Part shown: piece by piece, positions 1,953 through 32,469 of the stretch
How positions within the stretch are numbered: the first letter of the stretch is position 1
Layout of the letters: every line of letters begins with the position of its first letter
Assembly (NCBI GenBank): GCA_022616665.1
Contig: JAKEFJ010000001.1
Span: 1-39,753 of the forward strand
From: Acidobacteriota bacterium
GTDB taxonomy: Bacteria; Acidobacteriota; Polarisedimenticolia; Gp22-AA2; AA152
Direction: 5' to 3'
DNA length: 39,753 bases
Made by a program: the position numbers and the translations under genes
Notes under the pieces: generated by a model
What the model saw: the letters and a program-made list of their open reading frames with translations, nothing else
Told to the model about the DNA's origin: nothing
Databases searched by the model: none

Positions 1953-2007
1953 TATCCGACTGATCGATCCCATACTGCTTTGAAGGCACGTGGAGAGCGA
2001 GGGAGTC

Positions 2008-2742
2008 ATGAAGCGACCCGTTGAGAGGATTGTCCGTGCTTGCCTGCTCGGTTTGCTCCTCTTCCTGTGCCCCGGATCCCCGCATCCGCAGAGCAGCCCC
2101 GAGCCGAATGCGCAGCGCCTGCCGACCCAGCTGTTCACCGTGCGATTCAAGGATGTGAACGATGTCTATCTGCTCATCGAGCCACTGCTCTCGGCGAAGG
2201 GCTCGGTGTCGATGCAGCCAAGGTTGAAGACTCTGGCCGTCACCGACGACGAGGACACGCTGCGCCGAGTCGAAGAGATGATACGCAGCTACGACCTTCC
2301 TCCGAAAAACGTCGAAGTGGCTCTGCAGCTCATCCTGGCCTCAACCGAAGGGCAGCCCGAGAAGATCTCGCCGCGCATCCGGGGGGTCATCGACAAGCTC
2401 AATGAGATCTCCACCCGCTGGTCCGACTACCGGCTGCTGGGAAGCGCCACGGTCACCGCCAGCGAAGGGGAGAAGGCCAGCGTGGAGATGGGCCAGGACT
2501 ATCGCATCAGCTTCGCGGTGGATTACGCATCCGGCGAGCAGCAGTTGGTTCACTTCAAGCGCTTCACTTTGGACCGGCGGGACGCCGCAAAGGGACCCGA
2601 GACTTCGGGGGAGACCTATACCCGGGTCCTGGACACAGCGCTGAACCTCAAGGAAGACAAGCTCTACATCTTCGGGGCCTCGAAGATGGAGGGCAGTAAC
2701 CGGGCGCTGTTCATGACCATCACCGCGTCCGCCCAGCAGTAG
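2008..2742 (+). CDS. Small exported secretin-like protein (N1-type domain)
   Basis: This 244-residue protein starts at the ATG preceded by a GAGCGAGGGAG stretch; an in-frame GTG at 1990 would only lengthen the signal peptide. Residues 5-24 form a signal peptide (RIVRACLLGLLLFLCPG). Residues 40-97 read as a secretin N1-type fold, with FTVRFKDVNDVYLLIEPLL and a conserved LAVTDDEDTLRRVEEMI. The second half carries SEGEKASVEMGQ (about 152-163), which closely resembles SEGEKASVKIGD in the full secretin encoded at 9485-11881. It is far too short to form a secretin ring. It may be a periplasmic accessory of the secretin or a degenerate paralogue. It is the first gene of the operon and ends 13 bases before pilC. 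Confidence 0.65.
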   Translation: MKRPVERIVRACLLGLLLFLCPGSPHPQSSPEPNAQRLPTQLFTVRFKDVNDVYLLIEPLLSAKGSVSMQPRLKTLAVTDDEDTLRRVEEMIRSYDLPPKNVEVALQLILASTEGQPEKISPRIRGVIDKLNEISTRWSDYRLLGSATVTASEGEKASVEMGQDYRISFAVDYASGEQQLVHFKRFTLDRRDAAKGPETSGETYTRVLDTALNLKEDKLYIFGASKMEGSNRALFMTITASAQQ

Positions 2743-2755
2743 GAGAGCCGGGACC

Positions 2756-3973
2756 ATGCCCGAGTTCGTCGCCAAGATGGGAACCGCCGAGGGGGATGTC
2801 ATCGAGCGGGTCTACCTTTCGGAGAACGCCGATGCCCTGCGGCGCGACCTGGAGAGGAAGGACTTCCTGGTTTTCTCCATCCGCCGCAAAGCGGGGTTCG
2901 GCTCCCTCCTCCCCGGCATGGGCCGTGGCCGGATCAAGATGAAGGAATTCCTCATCTTCAACCAGCAGCTGGCGGCGCTTCTCCAGGCGGGGCTCCCCAT
3001 CATCTCCTCACTGGATGTCCTCCTGGAGCGCCGCAAGAATCCGTCGTTCCGGAAGGCCCTCACCGACATCCGCGATCAGGTCAAGGCGGGGACCTCGCTC
3101 TCCGAGGCGTTCGCATCCCAGGGGGATCTCTTTCCGCCCATCTACTCTTCCTCCCTGGCCTCCGGCGAGCGAAGCGGCGAAGTGGCTTCCGTCCTGCGAC
3201 GCTACATCACTCATACCAAGAAAGTGCTGGGCCTGAAGAGCAAGGTGATCGCGGCGCTCATCTATCCCGCCATCCTCTTCCTCATGTCCTTCATGGTGAT
3301 CGCAATCCTGATCTATTTCGTCATTCCCAAATTTTCTGAAATCTACGCCGGCTTCGGCGGGATCGAGAATCTCCCGCTGATCACCAAGATACTTCTGGGG
3401 GTCTCGAACTTCGCCACGCAAAACGCCGCGCTCATGGTGCCGGGGCTCCTGGCGGCGTTCCTGGGCTTCACCGCCTGGCGGCGGACGGCGTCGGGAGCGC
3501 TTACGGTAGACAGCTGGGTCCTCAAAGTCCCCTTCGTTGGAGGCATCATCCACAAGTACTGCGTCTCGCGCTTCACGCGCACCCTGGGCACTCTCGTGGC
3601 GGGAGGCATCCCGCTGGTCAACTCGCTGGAAATCGCCGCTCCCGCGGCAGGCAACCGGTTCTTCGTGAGCAAGCTTTCCACCGTCCCGGGGAAAGTGCGG
3701 GAAGGAAACGCCCTGGCCACCTCGCTGGAGCAGACCGGGCTGTTCTCCGATTTGGCGCTCGAGATGATTAAAGTCGGGGAATCCACCGGGGCCCTGCAGG
3801 AAATGCTGGACAACGTCTCGTCGCTTTATGACGAGGAGATCGACGACAGCCTCCAGAACATCGAAGCGCTCATGGTGCCCGTGATGCTGGTGTTCATGGG
3901 GGTGTTCATCGCGTTCATCATGCTGGCCATCTACATGCCCCTCATCAAGAGCTACGGAATGCAGGGGCGCTAG
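2756..3973 (+). CDS. pilC: Inner-membrane platform protein PilC/GspF
   Basis: At 405 residues this is the normal length for the polytopic platform protein that links the assembly ATPase to the pseudopilus. The N-terminal part (residues 1-45) is the small YcjW-like cytoplasmic segment common in PilC. Two T2SSF domains follow, at about 70-195 and 270-395, each ending in hydrophobic spans (for example ALIYPAILFLMSFMVIAI and VPVMLVFMGVFIAFIMLAIY). The family segments FNQQLAALLQAGLPI and TLGTLVAGGIPLVNSLEIA are clear, and each marks the start of a repeat. The gene sits between the small secretin-like gene and the ATPase gene with short gaps. Confidence 0.93.
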   Translation: MPEFVAKMGTAEGDVIERVYLSENADALRRDLERKDFLVFSIRRKAGFGSLLPGMGRGRIKMKEFLIFNQQLAALLQAGLPIISSLDVLLERRKNPSFRKALTDIRDQVKAGTSLSEAFASQGDLFPPIYSSSLASGERSGEVASVLRRYITHTKKVLGLKSKVIAALIYPAILFLMSFMVIAILIYFVIPKFSEIYAGFGGIENLPLITKILLGVSNFATQNAALMVPGLLAAFLGFTAWRRTASGALTVDSWVLKVPFVGGIIHKYCVSRFTRTLGTLVAGGIPLVNSLEIAAPAAGNRFFVSKLSTVPGKVREGNALATSLEQTGLFSDLALEMIKVGESTGALQEMLDNVSSLYDEEIDDSLQNIEALMVPVMLVFMGVFIAFIMLAIYMPLIKSYGMQGR

Positions 3974-4000: not shown

Positions 4001-5677
4001 TTGGCCCAGGAAGTGAAGCAACGCAAGCCCGCCGCGGTGGCGGAGGCGAGCACCGGGACGATTCAGCCTGAACCCCAGGTCCCTCGCGAGGCCGAGACTC
4101 TCTCCGAGGACCTCCTCGCACAGCGGTTGGCGGAGAGGCTGAAGGTCCCTTACGTGAACCTCAATGATTTCCAGATTGACGCCGATCTGTTCCGCTCGAT
4201 TCCCGTGGACCTCATGTTCCGGTACAACTTCGTTCCCTGGAAAATGGAGGAGGGACGATTGCTGGTGGTGATTGCCGATCCCAGCAACGTCCTGATGATG
4301 GACGACCTGGAACTCCTGCTGGGCCGCCCCTTGATCCCGGCGGTTGGAAGCTCTTCCGCCATCCAGGAGATCCTCAAGAAGAGCGAATCTTCCCAGCGGG
4401 TCCTGGAAGAGGCCACCGAGGAGTTCAAGCTCCAGCTCATCCAGGATGACGAGAGCGGCGAGGATCAGCTCACCATCGACAAGCTCACCTCCGACCAGAG
4501 TCCCATCGTCAAGCTGGTTGACACCACCATCTTCAACGCCCTCCAGCGCCGGGCCTCCGACATCCACATCGAGACCCGGGATCGGGAGGTGATGATCAAG
4601 TACCGCATCGACGGGGTGCTCATGAACGCCATGGAGCCCATCGACAAGAAGTTTCATTCGACCATCATCTCGCGCATCAAAGTCATGTCCGAGCTGGACA
4701 TCGCCGAGAAACGGATTCCCCAGGACGGCCGCTTCAAGCTCAAGATCCGCGGCCGGGCCATCGACTTCCGCGTCTCCATCATGCCCAGCGTCCACGGCGA
4801 GGACGCGGTCATCCGAATCCTGGACAAGGAATCGGTCAACCAGGAATTCTCCGAGCTCCGACTGGACGTGCTGGGATTCAGCGCCGAGGATCTCAAGAAG
4901 CTGCGGAAGTTCATCCGGGAGCCCTACGGGATGATCCTGGTCACCGGGCCCACCGGCTCGGGAAAGACCACCACCCTCTACGCCGCCCTCTCGGAGATCA
5001 AGAGCGTGGAGGACAAGATCATCACCATCGAGGATCCGGTGGAGTACCAGCTTTCCGGGATTACCCAGATTCCGGTGAACGAGAAGAAGGGTCTGACGTT
5101 CGCCCGGGGCCTCCGTTCCATCCTGCGGCACGACCCGGACAAGATCATGGTGGGAGAGATCCGCGACGAGGAAACGGCGCAGATCGCCATCCAGTCGGCC
5201 CTCACCGGACACCTGGTATTCACCACCGTCCACGCCAACAATGTGGTGGACGTGCTCGGGCGATTCCTGAACATGAAAGTGGAGCCCTACAACTTCGTCT
5301 CGGCCCTGAACTGCATCGTGGCCCAGCGGCTGGTGCGGCTCATCTGTGCCAAGTGCAAGCATCCGATGACCTACCCGGCGACGTTCATCGAAGAGAGCGG
5401 GTTGGATTCAGCGCGCTACGCCGCCCACGTGTTTCAGGAGGGGCGCGGTTGCCTGGATTGCAACGGCACCGGGTACAAGGGACGGATGGCCATCGCCGAG
5501 ATTCTGGACATGTCCGATCAAATCCGTCAGCTGATCCTCGACCGGCGCTCCGCGGCGGAGATCAAGAAAGCGGCGCGCGAGGAGGGGATGGTCTTCATGC
5601 GCGACGTCGCAGTGGCCCGCGCGCTGGAAGGGCACACCACGCTTCGAGAAATCAACAAAGTTACGTTCGTGGAGTGA
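4001..5677 (+). CDS. pilB: Type IV pilus/type II secretion assembly ATPase PilB/GspE
   Basis: This 558-residue hexameric ATPase powers pseudopilus extension at the cytoplasmic side. The start is a TTG behind GGGAGGAGGG. Residues 34-126 form the N-terminal T2SSE_N (MshEN-like) domain. The catalytic domain has Walker A GPTGSGKTTT (about 316-325), an Asp box near 340-350 (ITIEDPVEY), Walker B IMVGEIRDEE (382-391) and the His box LVFTTVHANN (405-414). A zinc site of four cysteines is complete (CAKC at 449-452 and CLDC at 484-487), typical of PilB/GspE and absent from the retraction ATPase PilT. No PilT gene accompanies it. Confidence 0.95.
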   Translation: MAQEVKQRKPAAVAEASTGTIQPEPQVPREAETLSEDLLAQRLAERLKVPYVNLNDFQIDADLFRSIPVDLMFRYNFVPWKMEEGRLLVVIADPSNVLMMDDLELLLGRPLIPAVGSSSAIQEILKKSESSQRVLEEATEEFKLQLIQDDESGEDQLTIDKLTSDQSPIVKLVDTTIFNALQRRASDIHIETRDREVMIKYRIDGVLMNAMEPIDKKFHSTIISRIKVMSELDIAEKRIPQDGRFKLKIRGRAIDFRVSIMPSVHGEDAVIRILDKESVNQEFSELRLDVLGFSAEDLKKLRKFIREPYGMILVTGPTGSGKTTTLYAALSEIKSVEDKIITIEDPVEYQLSGITQIPVNEKKGLTFARGLRSILRHDPDKIMVGEIRDEETAQIAIQSALTGHLVFTTVHANNVVDVLGRFLNMKVEPYNFVSALNCIVAQRLVRLICAKCKHPMTYPATFIEESGLDSARYAAHVFQEGRGCLDCNGTGYKGRMAIAEILDMSDQIRQLILDRRSAAEIKKAAREEGMVFMRDVAVARALEGHTTLREINKVTFVE

Positions 5678-5684
5678 AGGCTTC

Positions 5685-6728
5685 GTGCTCGCACCTCAGC
5701 TCGAGATGATTCTGCAGAAAATCGGCCTGGTGCCGGGCGTGGGACCCGCCAGGCTCAAGCCACGCCTTCCCCAGGTGGCGGTGATCGTCCTGCCGGACCG
5801 CGTCGGAGTGGTGCGCCTGTCGGGGCCCGCCACGCGCGGCGCAACCGGGAGCTCCCGCCCCTCGCTGATTGCCTACAAGGAGGTTTCGATTCCACCGGGA
5901 GTGGTGCTGCCCTCCTTGACCCACGCCAACTTCGTCGATTCCGGCCCGGTGGATCAGGCGCTGCGCGCGGCCTTTTTGGAGGCGGCGCCGAAGGACGATC
6001 GGATCTGCCTGGTGGTTCCCGACAGCATGGCGCGGGTTTCCATTCTGAGGTTCAACCGGATGCCGGCGAACCGCAGGGAAGTTCTGGACCTGATCCGCTT
6101 CCGCATGCAGAAGGTCCTCCCGTTCCGCGTCGAGGAGGCGGCGCTGGATTACCAGCTGCTGTCGGAGTCTGCGGCGGCGGAGCCGGACTTTCTCGTGACC
6201 CTCGCCCAGAGGACCGTTCTCTTCCAGTACGAACGGCTCCTGACCAGGATGAATCGGTTTCCCGGCCTGGTGGATCTCGAGAGCTTCAGCCTGGTGAACC
6301 TGCTCTTCAGGGACCCGGAGATGGCCGGGATGGACAAAGGAGATTGGGCCTTGGTGAACGCCGGGCCGGGCTATCTCACGGTGCTGTTCTTCCGGGAAGG
6401 CTCGCTCTGCTTCTACCGCTCGAAAGCGGTGGCCGATGAGGAGCGCTCCCCCGACCGGTTCCATCCGGCCCTTCGCCGGGAACTGGCCTCGTGCGCCTCC
6501 TTCTACCGGGAGCACCTCTCGGGCTCGGCGCTGGCACGCGCCGTCCTGAGGACCTCCAACGGGGAATCCCGCTTCCTGCCGGGAATGGTTCAGGAGGAGC
6601 TGGCATGCCCCGTCGCCATGCTGGATGCCGGAAAGGCCGTCGCGCTTCCGGCCGGCTCCGACCCGGCGGATCCGAAATGGCAGGCCCTCGCACCGGCCAT
6701 CGGCGCCGCGCTGGGGAGGCGGGCATGA
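5685..6728 (+). CDS. pilM: PilM-like actin-fold assembly protein
   Basis: This 347-residue protein starts at GTG 5685, seven bases after pilB. PilM is a cytoplasmic actin-like protein that binds the N-terminal tail of PilN and joins the inner-membrane alignment complex. The similarity rests on overall pattern: a beta-rich N-terminus with PQVAVIVLPDRVGVVRLSG, the segment RFRMQKVLPFRVEEAALDYQLL typical of PilM/GspL, and a length equal to PilM. Identification is supported mostly by the fixed order M-N-O-P-Q. The stop overlaps the pilN start as ATGA. A GspL-type cytoplasmic domain is the closest alternative. Confidence 0.82.
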   Translation: MLAPQLEMILQKIGLVPGVGPARLKPRLPQVAVIVLPDRVGVVRLSGPATRGATGSSRPSLIAYKEVSIPPGVVLPSLTHANFVDSGPVDQALRAAFLEAAPKDDRICLVVPDSMARVSILRFNRMPANRREVLDLIRFRMQKVLPFRVEEAALDYQLLSESAAAEPDFLVTLAQRTVLFQYERLLTRMNRFPGLVDLESFSLVNLLFRDPEMAGMDKGDWALVNAGPGYLTVLFFREGSLCFYRSKAVADEERSPDRFHPALRRELASCASFYREHLSGSALARAVLRTSNGESRFLPGMVQEELACPVAMLDAGKAVALPAGSDPADPKWQALAPAIGAALGRRA

Positions 6729-8122
6729 GGCTTCTGGAGATCAACCTTGCCACCCGTCCCTTTCGAAACAACACCCTTTATTGGGTGGGATTCGGATCGG
6801 CGGCTTTCATCCTGCTGGTGCTCACGGGCATGAACGGCTGGCTCTTCTTCCACTCGGGCACCTCGGTCAAGCATTACGAGGAGGAGATGGTCCTCAAGCA
6901 GCAGAAGCGCGATGGACTCTCCCGGGACGAGCAGCGCCTGGGCGTGAAGCTCACCAAGCTCGATTTCAACGGCCTGCGGCAGCAGGCGGAATTCGCCAAT
7001 GATGCCATCCGGCGGCGCGTCTTCTCCTGGACGGAGCTGTTCAACCGGCTGGAAGAGGTGGTTCCCCCCGCGGTGATGCTTACGGCGGTGCGGCCTGAAA
7101 TCCAGGCTGAGGGGATCTCCATCGTGGCGGAAGGGATGGCCAAGGATCAGGAAGGGCTGCTGGATTTCGAGGAGGGTCTCATCCGCAGCGCTTACTTCGC
7201 CCGGATCTACCCGGGCAGCGAGCGCAGAGAGCAGCGGGGTGGAGAGCTCCACTTTTCGCTGAAATTCGATTACTTGCCGGGTGGCCGGCCGGATGCGGCG
7301 CCGGCGGCTCCCGCGAAAAAGCCGGTGAAGCCGGCAAGCGAGGTGGCCGGCGATTCGACGAAGGGGTCGGAGCCACCCCACGAGACGGTGAAAGCCCCTG
7401 CGGCTCCACCGCCCCAGCCCGCCCCGAGCAACATTCCGGCAGGTGGATCCGGCCTTCTCGCCGCACAAACCCCAGCGCTTCCAGCGGCGACCGGCGTGGC
7501 TCCCGCCCCGGCGGCGACGGCTCCGGCCAATCCACAGCCGGTCCCGGCTCCGGTGGCAAATGATTCCCATGCCACGGCGCCTTCCAAGGCCCCGCCGAAA
7601 GCATCTTCAGGGTATCAGGGGGGGCGAACCCCTCCGGCACCCGGCACCAATCCGCGATTCACGCTCAACGCGAAACGCGGCGGCCCGGCCGGCCGTTCCA
7701 TGCTCAAACCCAAGATGGGAGTGGCGACTCGCATCGCAGGGGCGGAGGCGGGTCCCGGTCCCGAGGAACAGAAGATGCTGGCGGAAGCCGCGGCTGCGGC
7801 CTCCTTCAACGACAAGCCTCTGGAAGACGTGATCGCCTATCTGATGAAGAACCGCTCCATGACCTTCGTCTTCGATGGGAGCTTCGACTTGAGGCAGAGG
7901 GTGACCATGGACGTCTGGGAAAAGGAGCAGCGGGAAATCGTCGACATGCTCGCCGCCAAGCTGGGCGCGGTGGCCAACCAGGACGGTGAGAACAACTATC
8001 GTTTCTCGAAGCCTCCGGAGACACTTGAGGAGCCTCCCGTGGAGGAGGAGCCGGTGCCCGAGGAGCCCGCGGAAGAGCCGCCTCCCAAGGATGACGGCCA
8101 GAAAGAGGATGGGAATGTTTAA
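6725..8122 (+). CDS. pilN: PilN-like protein with an added C-terminal STN-like domain
   Basis: The ATG at 6725 overlaps the pilM stop; an open frame extends upstream but lies inside pilM. The N-terminus MRLLEINLATRPFRNN is the classic PilN motif that docks on PilM. One membrane span follows at about 19-41, then a coiled-coil and ferredoxin-like periplasmic part to about residue 185. Unlike ordinary PilN (about 180-220 residues), this protein has 465. A Pro/Ala-rich linker (about 185-345) leads to a C-terminal domain at about 350-430 that reads as a secretin/TonB short N-terminal (STN) fold, with FNDKPLEDVIAYLMKNRSM and VTMDVWEKEQREIVDMLA. The end is acidic and Pro-rich. The fusion could let PilN touch the secretin N-domains directly. 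Confidence 0.82.
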   Translation: MRLLEINLATRPFRNNTLYWVGFGSAAFILLVLTGMNGWLFFHSGTSVKHYEEEMVLKQQKRDGLSRDEQRLGVKLTKLDFNGLRQQAEFANDAIRRRVFSWTELFNRLEEVVPPAVMLTAVRPEIQAEGISIVAEGMAKDQEGLLDFEEGLIRSAYFARIYPGSERREQRGGELHFSLKFDYLPGGRPDAAPAAPAKKPVKPASEVAGDSTKGSEPPHETVKAPAAPPPQPAPSNIPAGGSGLLAAQTPALPAATGVAPAPAATAPANPQPVPAPVANDSHATAPSKAPPKASSGYQGGRTPPAPGTNPRFTLNAKRGGPAGRSMLKPKMGVATRIAGAEAGPGPEEQKMLAEAAAAASFNDKPLEDVIAYLMKNRSMTFVFDGSFDLRQRVTMDVWEKEQREIVDMLAAKLGAVANQDGENNYRFSKPPETLEEPPVEEEPVPEEPAEEPPPKDDGQKEDGNV

Positions 8123-8726
8123 CCGATTCGACATTCGAGAGGAGCGGGTGAAGGTTGCCGCCATCCTGGGGGTGCTTGCGGTGGTGAACCTGGCTCTCTA
8201 CATCACGCTCAATCTCCCTCGGATGCATCGGCAGGCCGTGGAGGAGCGTCGGGTGTCGGATCTGACGCAGAACCTGGCCGAGGTGTCGCGCCGGGTGGCG
8301 TTGATGAAGGATCTGGATCAGCGCTTTGAAACGGAAAAGACCAAGGTTGATACTTTCTATGACGATGTGCTGGGGGCCAAGGACATCCGGATGATCCAGA
8401 TCCAGCGGGAGGTGCGAGGCATCGCCGCCTCGCTGGGGATGGATCCCGAGACCATCGCCTACCAGCCGGACATCCTGGACAAAGTCGGCCTGATTTCCTT
8501 CAACATCAACGTGCCGCTGGTGGGTGATTACCGTAACCTCCGGCAGTTCATCAACAAGATCGAGAAATCGCAGAATTTTCTCATCGTGGAAAGCGTCAGC
8601 CTGGGTGGAGCGAAGGACGGCGGCGCGCTGTTGGATCTGAACATCCGCCTCTCCACCTATTTCGATGCGCCGGAGCTGCGCGAAATTCAGAAGGCGCCCG
8701 CAGAAAAGCGGCCGGGGAAGAGTTGA
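8115..8726 (+). CDS. pilO: PilO-like inner-membrane alignment protein
   Basis: PilO pairs with PilN in the inner membrane and links it to PilP. I place the start at ATG 8115, six bases after AGAGG; an ATG at 8109 is equally in frame and adds two residues. Both overlap the pilN stop. The protein has 203 residues, a normal PilO length. One membrane span lies at about 14-34 (VAAILGVLAVVNLALYITL), then a coiled coil (about 40-85) and a ferredoxin-like domain that contains the PilO segment LVGDYRNLRQFINKIEKSQ. The pilP start follows the stop by one base. Confidence 0.85.
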   Translation: MFNRFDIREERVKVAAILGVLAVVNLALYITLNLPRMHRQAVEERRVSDLTQNLAEVSRRVALMKDLDQRFETEKTKVDTFYDDVLGAKDIRMIQIQREVRGIAASLGMDPETIAYQPDILDKVGLISFNINVPLVGDYRNLRQFINKIEKSQNFLIVESVSLGGAKDGGALLDLNIRLSTYFDAPELREIQKAPAEKRPGKS

Positions 8727-8727
8727 G

Positions 8728-9435
8728 ATGGATCTTGCCTTCGAGCTGAAAAAGCGGCGCCGGGAGCTGACTCTGGGCGGCGCGCTGCTGGTGGTCCTGA
8801 CGGTCTTTTTCTATACCCAATCCGGCGGAGGGCCATCCGGAGGAGCGGGGGAGGAGACGGTGATGGTCACCGGTCCGCCGGCGGCGGTGGCCAAGGCGAT
8901 GGCCAAGATCGGCTCCGTCAAGCTCCCGGGAGTCCTGCTGGAGCGGTTGAACGATGATCGGGTCCCTTACGATCCGACCCAGCGGAACATCTTCCGCTAC
9001 GGAAATCTGCCGCCCCCTCCCCCGAGCCCCGAAGAGCTGGCCCGGATCGAGGCGGCAAAACAGGCGGCGGAGCAGGCCCGCCAGGCGGCCATCCAGGCGG
9101 AGCTTGACGCGCAGAAGAACCGGGCGGCGGCGGAGGCGGCGGCCCTGAACCAGCCCCCCATCGATCCTGCGACCGGTCTGCCGGTTGGCGTGGCGCCGCC
9201 TCCTCCCCCCAAGCCGATGCCTCCGGCGATCACGCTGCGGTACTCGGGCTACCTGGGCGCGGAGCGCGACAAGATGGCGGTGCTTTACAGCGGTGAAGAC
9301 ATGCTCCTGGCTCGCGCCGGAGATGTGGTGGAGAGGCAATTCCGCGTTTTAGACATCGGCTACGATTGGGTTAAGATTGGCTACGTCGACCCCCAATTTG
9401 CGGACCAGTATCAGAAACTCCGGATGGGACCGTGA
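8728..9435 (+). CDS. pilP: PilP/GspC-like periplasmic linker protein
   Basis: This 235-residue protein starts at ATG 8728, one base after the pilO stop. It has a short basic N-terminus, one membrane span at about 15-31 and no lipobox. A helical, Ala/Gln/Glu-rich stretch (about 105-145) follows, then a Pro-rich linker. The C-terminal beta domain (about 165-235, with RYSGYLGAERDKMAVLYSG and GDVVERQFRVLDIGYDWVKI) is of the PilP/GspC homology-region type that docks on the secretin N0 domain. Classical PilP is a lipoprotein, so this membrane-anchored form is closer to GspC in topology. Confidence 0.78.
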   Translation: MDLAFELKKRRRELTLGGALLVVLTVFFYTQSGGGPSGGAGEETVMVTGPPAAVAKAMAKIGSVKLPGVLLERLNDDRVPYDPTQRNIFRYGNLPPPPPSPEELARIEAAKQAAEQARQAAIQAELDAQKNRAAAEAAALNQPPIDPATGLPVGVAPPPPPKPMPPAITLRYSGYLGAERDKMAVLYSGEDMLLARAGDVVERQFRVLDIGYDWVKIGYVDPQFADQYQKLRMGP

Positions 9436-9484: not shown

Positions 9485-11881
9485 ATGATCAAGCCAAGGC
9501 AGGCAACATCGCGAGTCGCCATTCTGCTCCTGGTCCTGATTCCCCTGGCGGCCTGCGCCAGCACGACCCCGTACAGGCAGGGGGAAAAGTTCATGGAAGC
9601 GGAGAATTTTGACCAGGCGGTCCTGTCTTTCTCCAAGGCGCTGGCCCAGAAGCCAAGTGAGATCAAATACCAGGTGGCTTTGGCCCGGGCCCGGCTGCGC
9701 GCCTCCCAGCTACATTTCGATCGGGGGCAGAAGTACTCCGCTGCAGGGCAGACCGAGTCGGCCATCGGGGAAATGCAGCAGGCGGTCCTGCTGGATCCCT
9801 CCAACCAGTACGCCGCCAACGAGCTGGCGAAGCTCGTCGAAGTGTTCAGGAATCAGAGGGGACAGGGGCCCAGCGAAATCGAGAAGATGAAGCAAAAGGC
9901 CAAGATGGTCGGCCGGCTCACACCCAGGCTCAACCCCAAGTCGAACATCCCCATCGCCCTGAAATTCAAGGACGAGACCGTTCGGAAGGTCTACGACGCC
10001 TTGAGCAAGGCCACCGGCGTGAATTTCCTCTATGACGAGCGGGTGGACCTCAACAAGAAGGTCACGGTGGAGCTGACGGACGTCACCTTCAGCAAGGCGC
10101 TCGACAACCTCATGGCGCAGAACAAGCACTTCTTCAAAGTGTGGGACGAGAACACCATCCTCATCGCCGACGAGAACCAGCAGAAACACAAGGAATATGA
10201 CGACCTGGTCATCCAGACCTTCTACCTGAGCAACGCCGACGTCAAAGACGTCCAGGTCCTGCTGCGAACCCTCCTGGATGCGCGTCAGCTGGCCCAAAAC
10301 GACCGGCTCAACGCCATCACCATCCGCGACACGCCGGAGCGTGTGCAGGTGGCGGAGAAGATCATCGAGTCCAACGACAAGGCGAAATCCGAGCTGATCA
10401 TCGACGTGCAGCTCCTGGAGCTGAACCGCAATCTGCTGCAAAACCTCGGCATCGACCTGACGGGCGCGAGTGGCGGCTCAGGGAAATCCCTCACCATCGG
10501 ATACACCGCGGGGACCACGGTGCCGCTGAACAACCTGGGGCTGCTGCAGCAGCTGGGAAACTACGCCCTCGGACCCATCCCGAGCGTCATCATCAATTTC
10601 CTGCGCACCGACGCCGACGCCAAGGTGCTGGCCAAGCCCCAGCTGCGGGTCTCGGAGGGGGAGAAGGCGTCCGTGAAGATCGGGGATCGGATCCCGATTC
10701 CCACCACCACCTTCAACACGGCCACCACCGGAGGCAGCGTCTTCGCGCCCATCACCTCCTTCACCTACCAGAACGTCGGGATCAACATCGACGTGGAGCC
10801 GAGGGTTCATCACAACAAGGAGATCACCCTCAAGCTCAAGGTGGAGCTATCGAACGTAGCGGGAGTCGTGTCAGCCGGAGGCGGAGTCAGCCAACCCATC
10901 ATCGGAACGCGTGAGATCGAGACGCAGATTCGCTTGAAGGACGGCGAGACCAACCTCCTGGCGGGGCTCATCCGGGAAGAGGAGCGCTCCACCCTGAGCA
11001 GCGTGCCCGGGCTGGGGCAGATTCCGGTCCTGAAGCACCTTTTCGGCACCACGGAAACGGAGAGGAAAGAGACCGACATCGTTCTGACTCTGACGCCCCA
11101 CATCATCCGGGTGCCCGACATCAACCAGGCGGATCTGGAGCCCCTCTGGATCGGGACGGACCAGGATGTCGGATTGCGCGGCGCCTCCAAGACCAGCCCC
11201 TTCGGCGCTCCTTTTGAATCCGACGGCACCGGCGATGAGGAGTTGCCGCCGGAAGCGCGTGGCGCGGAGCAGGAGCCGTTGAATCCCAACCAGGGAGCGG
11301 TTCCCCTGGTGGCCGCCGTGGGTGCTGGAGGTCAGGCGGTCCCCGCGGCGCAAAACGGGACTTCCAACGGCGCGCAGACTGGCAGGCCGGTGGCGTCGGG
11401 AGGGGGAGCCCCGCCGGCGCCTATACCTCCCACTCCCACGGTCCTTACGACTGTCTCGTTTAATCCTCCCAATGTCCTCGCGACGGTGGGGGACACGATG
11501 ACCATTCAGGTCATGATCACCCAAGGCGCCCGGGTCGGGAGCGTGCCGTTTCATGTCGCCTACGATCCCAAGATCTTGCAGTTCGATTCAGCGCACAGCA
11601 GCGAAGGCGGCTTTCTGAAGCAGGACGGAGCGACCACCATCTATAACGCGCAAGCCAGCTCCCTCAACGAGGTATTCGTGGCACTGGCGCGGGTGGGCGT
11701 GCCCACCGGGGCCGGCGGGGACGGCTTGCTATGCACCCTTTCGTTCGTGGCTATCGCGACGGGAACCACGACCCTGAGCTTCACCGAGGCAGCGGTGCTG
11801 GATCCCCAGGGACAGCCAACGCTCTATCAGTTCGCGAACCCCGTGCAAGTGCAGGTGAGTCCGAGTCAGAAGGCACAATGA
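9485..11881 (+). CDS. pilQ: Lipoprotein secretin with TPR and cohesin-like domains (PilQ/GspD)
   Basis: This is the outer-membrane gate of the machine. I choose ATG 9485, which gives a lipoprotein signal (AILLLVLIPLAAC, lipid Cys24); the frame is open further upstream without signal character. Order in 798 residues: TPR-like helices 28-110; STN/N0 domain about 155-215 (FKDETVRKVYDALSKATGVN); secretin N1 domain about 225-290 (IQTFYLSNADVKDVQVLL); secretin core about 295-545, with SEGEKASVKIGD near 390 and the C-terminal signature SSVPGLGQIPVLKHLFG. A low-complexity linker leads to a cohesin-like beta-sandwich at about 655-790 (VPFHVAYDPKILQF). Only one N1-type domain is visible, fewer than in GspD. 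The stop overlaps the first pseudopilin start. Confidence 0.9.
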   Translation: MIKPRQATSRVAILLLVLIPLAACASTTPYRQGEKFMEAENFDQAVLSFSKALAQKPSEIKYQVALARARLRASQLHFDRGQKYSAAGQTESAIGEMQQAVLLDPSNQYAANELAKLVEVFRNQRGQGPSEIEKMKQKAKMVGRLTPRLNPKSNIPIALKFKDETVRKVYDALSKATGVNFLYDERVDLNKKVTVELTDVTFSKALDNLMAQNKHFFKVWDENTILIADENQQKHKEYDDLVIQTFYLSNADVKDVQVLLRTLLDARQLAQNDRLNAITIRDTPERVQVAEKIIESNDKAKSELIIDVQLLELNRNLLQNLGIDLTGASGGSGKSLTIGYTAGTTVPLNNLGLLQQLGNYALGPIPSVIINFLRTDADAKVLAKPQLRVSEGEKASVKIGDRIPIPTTTFNTATTGGSVFAPITSFTYQNVGINIDVEPRVHHNKEITLKLKVELSNVAGVVSAGGGVSQPIIGTREIETQIRLKDGETNLLAGLIREEERSTLSSVPGLGQIPVLKHLFGTTETERKETDIVLTLTPHIIRVPDINQADLEPLWIGTDQDVGLRGASKTSPFGAPFESDGTGDEELPPEARGAEQEPLNPNQGAVPLVAAVGAGGQAVPAAQNGTSNGAQTGRPVASGGGAPPAPIPPTPTVLTTVSFNPPNVLATVGDTMTIQVMITQGARVGSVPFHVAYDPKILQFDSAHSSEGGFLKQDGATTIYNAQASSLNEVFVALARVGVPTGAGGDGLLCTLSFVAIATGTTTLSFTEAAVLDPQGQPTLYQFANPVQVQVSPSQKAQ

Positions 11882-12399
11882 TCATGATCCGAATCGGCAA
11901 GCATGAACCGGCTCCCGGCAGCCCCTGTCCCAGGAATTCGGGGCAGAGGCGGGACTCGGGGCTGTCGCTGCTCGAGGTGCTGGTCTGCATCGCCGTGCTC
12001 CTGGTTCTGGCCGGGGCGGCGATGCCGGTGGCGAAGACCACCCTCAAGCGCCAGAAGGAGCTGGAGCTTCGCCGCGATCTGCGGATGATTCGCGAGGCCA
12101 TCGATCTCTACAAGGAGTATTCGGACAAGGGGCTCATCGAGAAGGAAGGCCTCGACTCGGAAGGTTATCCCCCTGATCTCGAGACGCTCGTGGAAGGAGT
12201 GCCCCAGGTGGGCTCCACGAAGAAATTGAAATTCCTGCGCCGCATTCCCATCGATCCGTTCACCCATCGGGACGAGTGGGGATTGCGATCCTATCAAGAC
12301 GATTTCGACTCGAAGTCCTGGGGCCGCCAGAATGTCTATGACATTTATACGGAGTACTCGGGCACGGCCCTGGACGGCAGCAGGTACGAGGATTGGTGA
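11878..12399 (+). CDS. Type II secretion pseudopilin, GspG-like (first copy)
   Basis: This 173-residue prepilin starts at an ATG overlapping the secretin stop (ATGA). The prepilin site is DSG/LSLLEVLVCIAVLLVLAG, with cleavage after Gly28 and the conserved Glu at +5. Position +1 is Leu rather than the usual Phe. The leader of 28 residues is long. The C-terminal region has PIDPFTHRDEWGLRSYQDD and ends ALDGSRYEDW, a GspG-like tail shared with the next gene. The sequence favours a pseudopilin of the secretion apparatus over a major pilin, because it lacks a C-terminal disulfide loop. Confidence 0.85.
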   Translation: MIMIRIGKHEPAPGSPCPRNSGQRRDSGLSLLEVLVCIAVLLVLAGAAMPVAKTTLKRQKELELRRDLRMIREAIDLYKEYSDKGLIEKEGLDSEGYPPDLETLVEGVPQVGSTKKLKFLRRIPIDPFTHRDEWGLRSYQDDFDSKSWGRQNVYDIYTEYSGTALDGSRYEDW

Positions 12400-12818
12400 G
12401 AAGCTTGAATTGGCCGGAGATGCGAAACAGAAAAGATTCAAGCGAGCGTGGGTTTACGCTGCTCGAGCTCCTCGTCGTGATAGCCCTCATTGGGATCATC
12501 TCGACGATCGCGGTGACCCAGTTCAGGCACATGCCGCAGAGGGCCAAAGAGGCGGTGCTCAAGGAGGACCTCTACATTCTTCGGGATGTCATCGATCAGC
12601 ACTTCGCCGACAAGGGGAAGTACCCCTCGACGCTCCAGGACCTGGTGGAGGCGGGCTATATCCGGAAGGTGCCGGTGGATCCGCTCACCGACTCAGCGGA
12701 TAGCTGGGTGATCGAAACCGTCCCCGCGGAGGAAGGTGAAGAGGCTGGAGGGGTCTATGATGTTCACAGCGGCGCCCCGGGCATGGCGCTGGATGGATCA
12801 AGCTACGCGGAGTGGTAA
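12396..12818 (+). CDS. Type II secretion pseudopilin, GspG-like (second copy)
   Basis: This 140-residue prepilin has a textbook cleavage site ERG/FTLLELLVVIALIGIIST, with Phe at +1 and Glu at +5. The start is uncertain: GTG 12396 overlaps the previous stop and has ACGAGG upstream, while ATG 12420 also gives a usable short leader. The body has the GspG pattern DLYILRDVIDQHFADKGKYP followed by VPVDPLTD and ends ALDGSSYAEW. The shared ALDGSxYxxW ending shows that the two neighbouring pseudopilins are paralogues. This is the better candidate for the major pseudopilin. Confidence 0.88.
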   Translation: MRSLNWPEMRNRKDSSERGFTLLELLVVIALIGIISTIAVTQFRHMPQRAKEAVLKEDLYILRDVIDQHFADKGKYPSTLQDLVEAGYIRKVPVDPLTDSADSWVIETVPAEEGEEAGGVYDVHSGAPGMALDGSSYAEW

Positions 12819-12858: not shown

Positions 12859-13677
12859 ATGAATACGACAAAAGGAATTCTACCCGTGCTGGGAGCCGCG
12901 GCGGGCCTCATGATCGTCGCGTGCGGCGTGGCGCTGACCGCCTCGTGCCGCGGATCCGATCAGGTGGCGCCTGAAGGGTCCACCATCACGATAGCGGCGA
13001 ACCCCGCGACCATCGTCATCGCGACGCCTGGCGGCAGCGGCAGCTCGGATGTGGTGGCGACCGTCTACAGCGCCGCGGGCGTGCCCCAGGAAGATCAGGA
13101 CGTGCGCTTCTCGAGCAGCGCCGGCTCCCTCTTTACTCCTCCGCCCGATAATCAGCCTGCTGCGAACATTCCGATTCCCACCGATAACCTCGGCAATGCC
13201 CACGTCGTGCTGACGACGACCACGACCACCACCGTGACCGCTCGTTCCGGGACGGCAACGGGGAGCCTGAGCTTGAGCACGGTCAACGGGAACCTGAATG
13301 CGATCACCATTAACCAGGACGACCCAGGCGGCAACTGCAAAGATACAATCACGGCCTGCAGCGATACCATATGTGTGACAGCGCAGGCAGTGGACGATGA
13401 AGGGATGGGGATACCCGGCGTGGTCATCGTTTTCAGCCAGTTGGACGGAACGAACAGCGATGGGGATCCCTTCGTTGTACAGTTCTCCCCGCTAACCCAG
13501 GTTACTACCGATGCGGGTGGATTTGCACACGCCACAGTCAAGGTGAAAGACTCCGACTGCGACGTATGTTCGGTCAGCACATCACCACCAACACCGTGCA
13601 CTGGAAACCTGCAGGCCTCCCTGCAAGGAGGCGGTTTCCCCAGCGGACCGCTGGAATTCACAGCGGCCATCAATTAA
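12859..13677 (+). CDS. Secreted or lipid-anchored Ig-like repeat protein
   Basis: This 272-residue protein starts at ATG 12859 with GGGAGCAAGGGAA upstream. The N-terminal hydrophobic segment holds two possible lipid cysteines, in IVAC (Cys22) and TASC (Cys30), so a lipoprotein is likely. Two Ig-like domains of the bacterial Big/invasin type follow (about 38-130 and 140-270). Typical phrases are DVVATVYSAAGVPQEDQDVRF and its second-domain counterpart VTAQAVDDEGMGIPGVVIVF. The second domain has several cysteines (CKDTITACSDTIC and DCDVCSVS) that could form disulfides in the periplasm. A run of Thr marks the join. Its place between pseudopilin genes suggests a surface or periplasmic part, or a cargo, of the machine; function is unknown. 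Confidence 0.7.
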   Translation: MNTTKGILPVLGAAAGLMIVACGVALTASCRGSDQVAPEGSTITIAANPATIVIATPGGSGSSDVVATVYSAAGVPQEDQDVRFSSSAGSLFTPPPDNQPAANIPIPTDNLGNAHVVLTTTTTTTVTARSGTATGSLSLSTVNGNLNAITINQDDPGGNCKDTITACSDTICVTAQAVDDEGMGIPGVVIVFSQLDGTNSDGDPFVVQFSPLTQVTTDAGGFAHATVKVKDSDCDVCSVSTSPPTPCTGNLQASLQGGGFPSGPLEFTAAIN

Positions 13678-28323: not shown

Positions 28324-31300
28324 ATGCGGAAAGTCCTGCTGGTCATCGCAGCGTCTCTGCTGGCAATCCCAGAGGGTCGCCCCTCCGCACCTCGCCCACG
28401 AGCCCTGACCCTGGAAGATCGAGTCCGCGCCCAGCTCGCCATCGACCGCGTCTACTACTCATATCAGGAAGGAACCAACAAGCCTTTCGAGAAAGCCGTT
28501 TCGCAGGAGGGGGTCGAGCAGAAAGTTCGAACGGTTCTGAAGCAATCCCTCGCCCTCGAAAAGTTCTGGCACACCCCCGTCACGGCTGCGATGCTCCACG
28601 CGGAATCGGAGCGCATGGCGCGAACGACGCCGATGCCCGGGAGGCTCCGCGAGCTTTACGCTGCGCTGGGAGATGACAGCTTCCTGATCGATGAGACGCT
28701 TGCCCGTTCGGTCCTGATCAACCGCCTCGTCAGAAACTTCTACGCCTACGATCAGCGCCTCCATGGAGAAGAGAGACGACGGGGCGAGGCAGTGAGGGAA
28801 ATGGTTCGCCGGTTGGGACCCGATAGCGCCGCCGAAGGAGCCGAACGTGTTGAGGTCGAGCTCTCGCTTTCCGAGAGGCCGGATTCGCCGCCTGCCACGC
28901 AATCCCGATCCCCCGAAGTCTTGGGCGGGCGCATTCATGCAGCTGGGGTCCGTCGCTTGACGGTTTCCCAGGCAGAGCTGGAGCAGGCTCGCGCCCAGGC
29001 TCCGGCGAATATTGCCGAGATAGGACCTGTGAAGGAGGACGGGGAGGGTTTCACGATTCAGGCACTTCTCGAGAGCAGATCCGATCGGATCAGGATCGCA
29101 AACTACAAAGTGCCGAAAAAGTCGTTCGATATCTGGTGGCGGGAGGTGCGTGACAGCTTGAGAGAGCACGAGGTCGAAGTGGTCGCCGCACCTGGAGAAG
29201 CCTTGCCGGAAATTGTGGGATCGGCCGGGGGCTTTGTACCATCGGCTGCCGGACCTGTTCTTCCTGCGACGACTTGCACTCCCGATAACACCTGGCTTTC
29301 GATGATCGGAAATACCGCTCCGGGCTCGAGACGGAATGCCTCGGTGGTCTGGACCGGCAGCAGGATGATTGTCTGGGGAGGCGCCTCTGCATACATGCAA
29401 GACACAGGCTCCTCCTATGATCCGGCGACGGACACCTGGACGCCGGTCTCGAAACTTGATGCACCGGCGGCTCGACACCAGCACACCGCCGTGTGGACAG
29501 GGAGCCGGATGATTGTCTTCGGCGGCCGTGACGTTGGGAATGTACCCTTGTATGACGGCGGCCTCTATGATCCCCTCAACGATCAGTGGAGCCCGATGAA
29601 TTCATACGGCGCGGGTCCAGGTCGCTACCAGCACACCGCGGTTTGGACCGGCAACCGCATGGTGGTCTGGGGAGGATTAGGCCAGTGGGTTGACACCTAT
29701 GCCCACGTCTACGACCCATCGAGCAATACCTGGTCGCTGATCTATGGAACGACCGAAGGGCCAACGGTACGTTATCTGCATTCCGCCGTCTGGACCGGAA
29801 CGGAGATGGTGATTTGGGGTGGATTCGATGCCGCGACTGGCAACCCATTGAAGACGGGGGGGCGCTACAATCCCGTCACCGATATCTGGACTGCGACCCG
29901 CGTCAATCCAGGAGCACCCCCTGCGCGATTCTCGCACTCCGCGGTATGGACCGGGAGCCGGATGCTCATCTGGGGCGGCTCCACCGCCGCCGGAGCCACC
30001 AGCTCAGGGGCCAAGTACGATCCAGTGGGGAACACGTGGGAATCGATGGCGGGCAGCGGCGCTCCTGTGGCTCGCTACAGCCACTCGGCGATTTGGACCG
30101 GAGGAAGAATGATCGTCTGGGGAGGAACCGACGGCACTTCATACTTCTCCTCGGGCGGGAGCTATGATCCCTTGGGCGATGCCTGGAGCGCCACCTCCGG
30201 AATGAACGCTCCTCCGGGGCGACAGGATCCGCTGGCCGCCTGGACAGGTTCTCAAATGGTCGTCTGGGGGGGCACGGACGGTGCAGGATACGGTCTCTTG
30301 ACGGGTGGCCGTTACGATGCCGCCAGTGACTCCTGGACTCCGGTATCCGTCCATGACGCTCCGGAATCAGGAGCTGGTAACACGACCATCTGGACAGGAT
30401 CTCACATGGTGGTCTGGGGTGGAGGGGAGCGGCTTGCCGGTTTCCCGGTTGCCACTGGAGGGCGCTACGATCCGGCGACCAACGACTGGAGCCATACCTC
30501 CTTGGTGGGTGTTCCAACCCCCCGCTACAATCACACGGCGGTCTGGGCAGGGACCCACATGATCGTGTGGGGTGGAACAGGCTTTGCCGGCTTTACGAAT
30601 GAGGGGGGGCGCTATGATCCGATTCTCGATTCATGGAGTTCTACCTCAACTATCAATACGCCGGCACCCCGGGAGGGCCATGACGCGGTTTGGACCGGCA
30701 GCGAGATGATCGTTTGGGGAGGAACTAACTTTGAGTTCCTGCCGACGGATACCGGCGGTCGCTACAATCCGGCGAGCGACACATGGGTGCCTACGAGCAC
30801 CGTCGGCGCTCCAACGCAGACCCAGAGCACCGTAGTCTGGACCGGGAGCCGGATGGTCATCTGGGGAGGAAGGGATGCCGGCGGATCCTACGTCAACACA
30901 GGCGCGCGATACGATCCTTCGACCGACACCTGGCAGGCCACATCCACCCTGGGCGCTCCGTCCCAACGTACCTATCACACGGCAGTTTGGACCGGGAGCC
31001 GGATGGTGATCTTCGGAGGATACGATGGGCCGCATCCCTGTGGGAGTTTCACCTGCTCCGGCTTGGCGGACGGGGGAAGATACGATCCCGTCGCCGACTC
31101 CTGGCAGCCCATGGCCACGAATTTTCGAATTTTTGACCATACCGCGGTGTGGGCCGGTCCAGGTGCGGGAATGATCACCTGGGGCGGGAGGTGGGAAAAC
31201 TTTGGTGTATTCGGAGACATCTATACCGCATGGGGCTTTCGATACAATCCCGCGACGAACACGTGGAGCCAAATTTCGGGTTCCGGAGCGCCACGGGAGC

Positions 31301-32469
31301 GCATTTTTCACACCGCCATTTGGACGGGGAGCTTCATGATCGTGTGGGGAGGTGAAACCTACTATCCTGACCTCGTACTTACGGACGGAGGACGGTACGC
31401 CTTTGGCCAGGGGCTGGATGATGACGGAGACGGCTTCAGCGAATGCGAGGGGGATTGCAACGATGCCAATGGGCAGGTCTACCCCGGCGCGCCCGAGATT
31501 TGCGATGGTCTGGACAATGACTGCGATGGGACCCTGCTCGAGAACGCTGACAGCGATGGAGATGGTGTCACCATTTGTGGCGGCGATTGCAACGACGCCA
31601 ATGCCTTCGTCCGACCGGGGATGCCGGAATCGTGCAACGGAATCGACGAGAACTGCAATGGATCCATCGATGAAGGCTTCACCGATGTAGACGCCGATGG
31701 CTATGCATCCTGCACCGATTGCAATGATCAGGATGCAGCCGCCCATCCCGGGGCTGTTGAGACCTGCGACGGGATCGACAACGATTGCAACGGGGCCGCC
31801 GATGAAACCTTCGTCGATGCAGATGGAGATGGCTACGCCACCTGCGTCGACTGCAACGACTCCAGCGCCGCGATTCATCCGGCCGCTGCGGAGGTCTGCA
31901 ACGGGATGGACGATAATTGCGCGTCCGGCATCGATGAGGGGTTCCCGGACGCCGATGCGGACGGCTATGCTTCCTGCGTCGACTGTGACGATTCCAGCGG
32001 TTCGATCCACCCCGGCGGATCCGAGGTCTGCAATCTTCTGGACGATGACTGTAATGGTGTTATTGATGACGGATTCGACCTGGATGAGGACGGGCACAGC
32101 TCCTGCTTTGACGATTGTGATGATCAGGAGCCGGGGGTCTGGTCCGAGCCCTTCGAGGTTCAAGGTCTACAGCTTCAGGGGGGAGCTTCCTCCACTCAAT
32201 TGGGCTGGAGCGACATGGCTCCGCTCGTGGGTCCCCTCACCCTCTACGACGTCTATACAGGAACCCTTGCCTCGTCCCCAGGAATCAGTTTCTCCTCGGC
32301 CACCGGTCTCTCGCTTGGCCAGGTGGAGACAAGCTTCACAGATTTTCAGGCGAACCCCTCGGTAGGGAGCGGTTACTGGTACCTGCTCAGAGCTCTGAAT
32401 CTCTGCGGATTCGGGACCTTCGGCACGGACAGCAATGGGCAGGAGCGAATCCTCCCCGTTAGTCCATGA
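28324..32469 (+). CDS. Large secreted protein: SurA-like N-terminus, 14 kelch repeats, MopE repeats
   Basis: From ATG 28324 the protein has 1381 residues; the frame is open upstream but overlaps the flavoenzyme and promoter. A signal peptide (VLLVIAASLLAIP) comes first. Residues 27-150 are helical and resemble the N-terminal chaperone part of SurA-type isomerases, without a PPIase domain. Residues 338-1026 hold 14 kelch units of about 49 residues, each with HTAVWTGSRMIVWGG, then GGRYDPxxDxW, enough for two propellers. Residues 1031-1273 hold five full and one partial MopE units (DxDGDGYxxCxDCND, CDGIDNDCNG), which bear Asp-rich, Ca-binding-like loops and paired cysteines. A beta-rich end domain (about 1275-1381) resembles fibronectin III. 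Location: surface or secreted; partner unknown. Confidence 0.88.
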   Translation: MRKVLLVIAASLLAIPEGRPSAPRPRALTLEDRVRAQLAIDRVYYSYQEGTNKPFEKAVSQEGVEQKVRTVLKQSLALEKFWHTPVTAAMLHAESERMARTTPMPGRLRELYAALGDDSFLIDETLARSVLINRLVRNFYAYDQRLHGEERRRGEAVREMVRRLGPDSAAEGAERVEVELSLSERPDSPPATQSRSPEVLGGRIHAAGVRRLTVSQAELEQARAQAPANIAEIGPVKEDGEGFTIQALLESRSDRIRIANYKVPKKSFDIWWREVRDSLREHEVEVVAAPGEALPEIVGSAGGFVPSAAGPVLPATTCTPDNTWLSMIGNTAPGSRRNASVVWTGSRMIVWGGASAYMQDTGSSYDPATDTWTPVSKLDAPAARHQHTAVWTGSRMIVFGGRDVGNVPLYDGGLYDPLNDQWSPMNSYGAGPGRYQHTAVWTGNRMVVWGGLGQWVDTYAHVYDPSSNTWSLIYGTTEGPTVRYLHSAVWTGTEMVIWGGFDAATGNPLKTGGRYNPVTDIWTATRVNPGAPPARFSHSAVWTGSRMLIWGGSTAAGATSSGAKYDPVGNTWESMAGSGAPVARYSHSAIWTGGRMIVWGGTDGTSYFSSGGSYDPLGDAWSATSGMNAPPGRQDPLAAWTGSQMVVWGGTDGAGYGLLTGGRYDAASDSWTPVSVHDAPESGAGNTTIWTGSHMVVWGGGERLAGFPVATGGRYDPATNDWSHTSLVGVPTPRYNHTAVWAGTHMIVWGGTGFAGFTNEGGRYDPILDSWSSTSTINTPAPREGHDAVWTGSEMIVWGGTNFEFLPTDTGGRYNPASDTWVPTSTVGAPTQTQSTVVWTGSRMVIWGGRDAGGSYVNTGARYDPSTDTWQATSTLGAPSQRTYHTAVWTGSRMVIFGGYDGPHPCGSFTCSGLADGGRYDPVADSWQPMATNFRIFDHTAVWAGPGAGMITWGGRWENFGVFGDIYTAWGFRYNPATNTWSQISGSGAPRERIFHTAIWTGSFMIVWGGETYYPDLVLTDGGRYAFGQGLDDDGDGFSECEGDCNDANGQVYPGAPEICDGLDNDCDGTLLENADSDGDGVTICGGDCNDANAFVRPGMPESCNGIDENCNGSIDEGFTDVDADGYASCTDCNDQDAAAHPGAVETCDGIDNDCNGAADETFVDADGDGYATCVDCNDSSAAIHPAAAEVCNGMDDNCASGIDEGFPDADADGYASCVDCDDSSGSIHPGGSEVCNLLDDDCNGVIDDGFDLDEDGHSSCFDDCDDQEPGVWSEPFEVQGLQLQGGASSTQLGWSDMAPLVGPLTLYDVYTGTLASSPGISFSSATGLSLGQVETSFTDFQANPSVGSGYWYLLRALNLCGFGTFGTDSNGQERILPVSP
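29338..31400 (+). repeat. Fourteen tandem kelch-coding repeats of about 150 bp
   Basis: Each unit encodes a W-T-G-S-x-M-hydrophobic-W-G-G strand pair. The DNA copies have drifted apart, so the array looks old, and unit length varies from about 45 to 57 codons. The last two units are the most irregular. Confidence 0.85.
31418..32143 (+). repeat. MopE-type Cys/Asp-rich repeats
   Basis: Five complete units of about 37-47 codons and a sixth partial one follow the kelch array in frame. The unit core is DGYASCxDCND followed by HPGAxExCDGIDNDCNG. Each unit keeps about five cysteines, and the spacing of the first two units is longer. Confidence 0.85.

Follow-up and report, generated by a model that had tools for sequence, protein, structure and literature searches.

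A liposecretin of Acidobacteriota with N-terminal TPRs and a flexibly tethered C-terminal cohesin

The liposecretin HxcQ of Pseudomonas aeruginosa carries its own lipid anchor and is not known to have a TPR module or a C-terminal cohesin. Cohesins are docking domains that are best known from cellulose-digesting machines. Among related secretins, the pilotins PilF and TadD are TPR lipoproteins (PMC10499894), and the S-domain at secretin C termini, which binds pilotins, lies on the periplasmic side, since no part of the secretin but its top rim is embedded in the outer membrane (PMC6532946). In this study, we analyzed a secretin gene within a stretch of 39,753 nt from an Acidobacteriota bacterium (GCA_022616665.1, contig JAKEFJ010000001.1, positions 1 to 39,753; here called the window) and found that it encodes a liposecretin with a lipid-anchor sequence and a TPR module at its N terminus and a cohesin on a flexible linker at its C terminus. 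The gene lies in an operon that specifies an Acidobacteriota machine of the type IV filament/type II secretion (T2SS)-like kind. We found no description of a secretin-cohesin fusion in the literature searched, which included few subscription papers; automated domain annotation would reveal the fusion, and database entries may therefore show this architecture already.

Table 1. Features of the secretin operon and of the secretin itself (positions are those of the window)
Feature	Coordinates	Strand	Evidence
Stand-alone Secretin_N (N1) protein, operon head	1990..2742	+	PF03958 30.9 bits; kept in relatives
GspF/PilC-like inner-membrane platform protein	2756..3973	+	Pfam T2SSF 5.7e-56
GspE/PilB/MshE-like ATPase	4001..5677	+	Pfam T2SSE 1.2e-131 and MshEN
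PilM-like protein	5685..6728	+	Pfam PilM_2 below cut-off; synteny
PilN-like protein	6719..8122	+	Pfam PilN below cut-off; synteny
PilO-like protein	8106..8726	+	Pfam PilO above cut-off
Protein in PilP position	8665..9435	+	Position alone; no Pfam PilP match; synteny kept
Secretin: signal peptide and lipobox (LAAC, Cys24)	9485..9556	+	Translation; Cys column kept in 42/48 orthologues
Secretin: TPR helices, residues 29-142	9569..9910	+	Pfam TPR_2 above cut-off; helices mostly pLDDT >90
Secretin: N0/STN domain, residues about 157-229	9953..10171	+	Pfam STN below cut-off; GspD N0 weak; model secondary structure
Secretin: N1 domain (Secretin_N), residues 242-302	10208..10390	+	Pfam PF03958 above cut-off
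Secretin: core, residues 303-542	10391..11110	+	Pfam PF00263 1.3e-43; Foldseek top match PilQ 6w6m
Secretin: conserved segment 3' of core, PLWIGT...LRGxxxxxPF	11111..11224	+	Orthologue alignments
Secretin: low-complexity disordered linker, residues about 566-652	11180..11440	+	Model pLDDT; length differs among orthologues
Secretin: cohesin domain, residues 653-792	11441..11860	+	Pfam PF00963; model pLDDT 97.4; Foldseek
GspG-like pseudopilin 1	11878..12399	+	N_methyl, weak GspG; ATG overlaps secretin stop by 4 bases
GspG-like pseudopilin 2	12393..12818	+	N_methyl above cut-off; GspG below equivalog cut-off
Predicted lipoprotein, Big_1-like Ig domains	12859..13677	+	Pfam Big_1 27.2 bits, cut-off 34.9

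The secretin gene is an ORF of 798 amino acids that runs on the plus strand from the ATG at 9485 to the TGA at 11881 without an internal stop (Table 1). Four Pfam families exceed their cut-offs in it: TPR_2, Secretin_N (34.3 bits), Secretin (PF00263; 149 bits, residues 373 to 542), and Cohesin. The full-length structural model (mean pLDDT 80.7), a monomer that carries no information on the ring, shows the TPR helices, N0, N1, the core to residue 542, a low-confidence stretch at residues of about 566 to 644, with pLDDT of about 36 to 40 across residues 571 to 640, and the cohesin. It contains no folded S-domain, the core being followed by the disordered linker and then the cohesin. An earlier note on this DNA had described a secretin with a lipid anchor, TPRs, and a linker, and all of these are confirmed. 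One orthologous secretin (L008:5866-8223) contains a stop codon that splits it in two ORFs and is either a genuine break or an assembly error.

The arrangement of N0, N1, and secretin core resembles that of PilQ and GspD. A Foldseek search with the full-length model returned PilQ of V. cholerae (6w6m) as the best PDB match, followed by GspD and T3SS secretins, with cohesins also listed. Unlike PilQ and GspD, this secretin has an N-terminal lipid anchor and TPRs, a single N1 domain, a C-terminal cohesin, and no folded S-domain. NCBIfam places the core among the secretins, though it does not reach the cut-offs for the GspD equivalog TIGR02517 (169 bits versus 351), the PilQ subfamily TIGR02515 (136 bits versus 284), or MshL. 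The likeness to HxcQ lies in a secretin with its own lipid anchor. The core is also matched by the NCBIfam profile of the Amuc_1098 family, a type IV pilus outer-membrane protein of Akkermansia, but with a score of only 58.5 against a cut-off of 750; the same profile matches the N-terminal TPR region in 9 of 19 orthologues.

At the N-terminal end, Cys24 within the lipobox qualifies the protein as a liposecretin, and lipidation is predicted. The lipobox Cys is present in 42 of the 48 aligned orthologues, three others having a gap and three (family f16) another residue at this position. The f16 proteins L099, L101, and L132 keep the cohesin and lack the lipobox Cys, so the modules at the two ends are separable in evolution. 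All 19 orthologues scanned (19/19) have a TPR match at this end, and its profile resembles TPRs in general rather than any single pilotin family; PilF is absent among the PDB matches listed for it. A lipidated N terminus followed by TPRs is what the pilotins PilF/PilW, Tgl, and TadD have, and weak NCBIfam matches to PilW and Tgl were obtained. Unlike in those pilotins, the TPR module is short and fused to the secretin, and the scores lie far below the TPR-pilotin equivalog cut-offs (PilW, 25.8 bits versus 154; Tgl, 22 bits versus 225). Because PilF and TadD are TPR lipoproteins and the TPRs are here fused behind a lipobox, we infer that the lipidated TPR end may allow the secretin to pilot itself. 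The TPR matches being general ones, descent of this end from a pilotin is one possibility.

The C-terminal domain is, by family score and predicted fold, a true cohesin. PF00963 matches residues 661 to 774 with 29.1 bits in the whole protein (cut-off 24.1) and with 33.7 bits when the domain is taken alone. When the C-terminal domains of 34 orthologues were aligned and then scanned singly, 33 matched PF00963 on their own (E ≤ 0.01). A single-sequence phmmer search of the PDB found no cohesin; a profile built from the orthologue alignment did reach cohesins, matching more than 20 solved ones by sequence (best E value, 6.5e-9). The AlphaFold2 model of the domain alone (pLDDT 97.4) has the beta-sandwich (jelly-roll) fold of cohesins, and its best 50 Foldseek matches in the PDB are all cohesins (50/50), led by the non-cellulosomal cohesin 2xdh of Archaeoglobus fulgidus (E 2.8e-11; TM-score 0.79). 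The domain thus shares its fold with 2xdh and with cellulosomal type I and II cohesins and differs from them in its identity of about 18%, in being borne by a secretin as a single copy, and in usually having no genomic dockerin outside the window's class. Mean conservation is about 1.46 on the face usually used for dockerin binding and 1.23 on the other sheet, a small gap between faces that were assigned by strand alternation. The cohesin proposed in the earlier note is therefore upheld, and the alternative it had named, an ordinary secretin S-domain without a cohesin match, is not what we found. Its view of both ends as additional modules for interaction also appears right, and binding of a cargo or partner by the cohesin is plausible.

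The neighboring genes resemble type IV pilus and T2SS loci in their PilM/N/O-like products, MshE-type ATPase, and GspG-like pseudopilins. What recurs across the class is a set comprising the Secretin_N protein, GspF, GspE, the PilM/N/O-like proteins, the protein in PilP position, the secretin, two pseudopilins, and the Big_1-like lipoprotein. That lipoprotein (12859-13677), conserved 3' of the pseudopilins, is a candidate component of the machine. Elsewhere in the window, at 28327-32466, lies a gene for a large Kelch-repeat protein with several MopE-type metal-binding repeats (PF11617) at its end.

Among 27 genomes of the class to which the window belongs, comparison of coordinates showed the PF00963 match in frame with a secretin in 24. 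In one further genome (G008) the secretin runs off the contig, in another (G010) the domain falls below the genome-search threshold yet can be aligned with the others, and in G020 no cohesin-bearing secretin was detected. Across 159 sampled Acidobacteriota genomes, cohesins were found in 83 and dockerins in 64, the counts of cohesins per genome being minimum values, as one in G014 escaped the scan. Of 40 loci retrieved, 37 came from 36 genomes that do not belong to the class, and the fusion was verified in 32 of these 36. Its retention throughout the class and in 32 further genomes of the phylum argues that it is kept by selection. A metagenome-assembled genome labeled Deltaproteobacteria also carries the fusion (L019); we did not take this as evidence of spread beyond the phylum, as its cohesin groups with those of Acidobacteriota in the cohesin tree with 100/100 support.

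A search for dockerin-like domains, which the earlier note had proposed, returned two above the cut-off in the window's own genome. One, on C215, belongs to a 281-amino-acid FnIII-dockerin protein with a signal peptide; its gene is followed directly, on the minus strand, by that of a cohesin lipoprotein (L077:1105-2567, G000:C215). The other, on C90, sits within an ORF of 1205 amino acids. In this genome, which is incomplete (89.5%), the orthologue profile detected just two cohesins, that of the secretin and that of the C215 lipoprotein. Pairs related to the C215 pair occur in G001, G002, G003, G004, and G017, and in f3 genomes there is an FnIII-dockerin-like gene without a cohesin beside it. 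Several FnIII-dockerin genes, with or without a nearby cohesin, adjoin a histidine kinase and response-regulator-like pair, so named from its sequence. In G003, G004, and G014 a separate secretin-type cohesin gene lies close to a dockerin gene. Separate, anchored-looking proteins with secretin-type cohesins adjoin dockerin genes on the minus strand at L130:2474-3697 and L129:2779-3516, and at L091:232-1362; the N terminus is hydrophobic in the L130 protein and lipobox-like in the L091 one. In the cohesin tree, which has many long branches and is built on few columns (141), the free cohesins share one clade with the secretin cohesins of the class (support 90/89). Dockerins (E up to 0.01) were detected in 26 of 27 class genomes versus 2 of 14 controls, with two mismatches: no dockerin was detected in G016, a carrier of the fusion, and no cohesin-bearing secretin in G020, where dockerins are present.

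Our results are consistent with a model, to which we give a probability of roughly 0.45, in which the protein is a self-piloting liposecretin whose leashed periplasmic cohesins serve as arms for docking partners. The cohesin is most likely a tethered docking arm in the periplasm at the channel mouth, because secretin C termini lie on that side (PMC6532946). The lipidated TPR end would be a built-in pilotin that takes each subunit to the outer membrane, and the assembled ring would present about a dozen or more leashed cohesins to the periplasm. Tethered by some 80 disordered residues, each cohesin could sweep the space around the channel, where the arms would catch a protein partner, either another component of the envelope or a folded cargo waiting to be exported, and hold it at the mouth. 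Within the class, one plausible candidate would be a secreted protein that bears a dockerin, for example the C215 FnIII-dockerin protein; elsewhere in the phylum the partner could not usually be a detectable dockerin. The identities of the domains, their retention in the class and the phylum, the conserved operon, the lipobox in most orthologues, the precedent of TPR-lipoprotein pilotins, and the periplasmic position of secretin C termini all argue for the model, as do the dockerins of the class, the signal-peptide-bearing FnIII-dockerin protein encoded beside a cohesin lipoprotein, and the clade of free cohesins. Against it stand the scarcity of dockerins outside the class, the lack of association between cohesins and dockerins among genomes, the cohesin that the C215 dockerin already has as a neighbor, the mismatch in G016 and G020, and the TPR end that is not specific to pilotins.

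Several other explanations bear on the same observations. The secretin cohesin might bind the type I dockerins of secreted proteins such as those on C215 and C90 and so select export substrates. The two dockerins in the genome itself, their presence in nearly all genomes of the class, the grouping of dockerin-linked free cohesins with secretin cohesins, and the f3 FnIII-dockerin-like genes that have no cohesin beside them favor such recruitment, and dockerin binding may occur within the class. We nevertheless consider it unlikely that dockerin-specific cargo selection accounts for the domain. The C215 dockerin has a nearer cohesin neighbor in the adjoining gene and so may not need the secretin, and cohesin counts per genome are minimum values. 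Beyond the class, dockerins were found in 20 of 67 genomes with cohesins versus 28 of 74 without (Fisher p = 0.37), and just 4 of 32 verified carriers of the fusion have a detectable dockerin, divergent dockerins being able to escape detection. A dockerin as the general partner was rejected over the 159 genomes; with none detectable in 28 of the 32 outside carriers, the capture of dockerins is unlikely to be what the domain generally does.

The cohesin could instead be a purely structural module for assembly or stability that replaces the S-domain and contacts neighboring subunits, peptidoglycan, or a machine component, with no role in cargo. It does occupy the place of the GspD S-domain in a model without one, and genomes throughout the phylum retain it whatever their dockerin status. 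We regard this as rather doubtful, if a little less so than dockerin-specific recruitment, since a linker that is disordered and differs in length among orthologues does not sit well with a rigid contact in the ring, and targeting is already provided for by the predicted lipid anchor. Because of that anchor, the pilotin-like partner suggested in the earlier note should not be needed for targeting. That note had also raised binding to the outer leaflet or surface adhesion. For syntrophic bacteria, an adhesin role of cohesin and dockerin proteins has been suggested (PMC10553843), and a cohesin reaching the outside could bind other cells, matrix, or polysaccharide; the C termini of known secretin structures are periplasmic, however (PMC6532946), and no outward route is apparent, which makes binding to the outer leaflet less likely and adhesion the least likely of these readings and improbable overall. 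The earlier interpretation is partly supported. Beyond what the sequence alone could show, the fusion is phylum-wide, and most of its carriers outside the class have no detectable dockerin.

It is not yet settled how T2SS-like machines select the folded proteins that they export, and a phylum-wide secretin with a recognizable, leashed docking domain offers a concrete and testable handle on that selection. A bolder version of the docking model, which we think unlikely, is that the ring of leashed periplasmic cohesins catches folded partners and delivers them to the channel, the tag being a dockerin in the class and an undescribed ligand elsewhere. If true, this would mean recruitment of substrates by a cohesin-type docking code in an export machine of Acidobacteriota, which abound in soil and have seen little experimental study, and it would widen the range of cohesins beyond extracellular scaffolds to include the periplasmic face of a channel for export.
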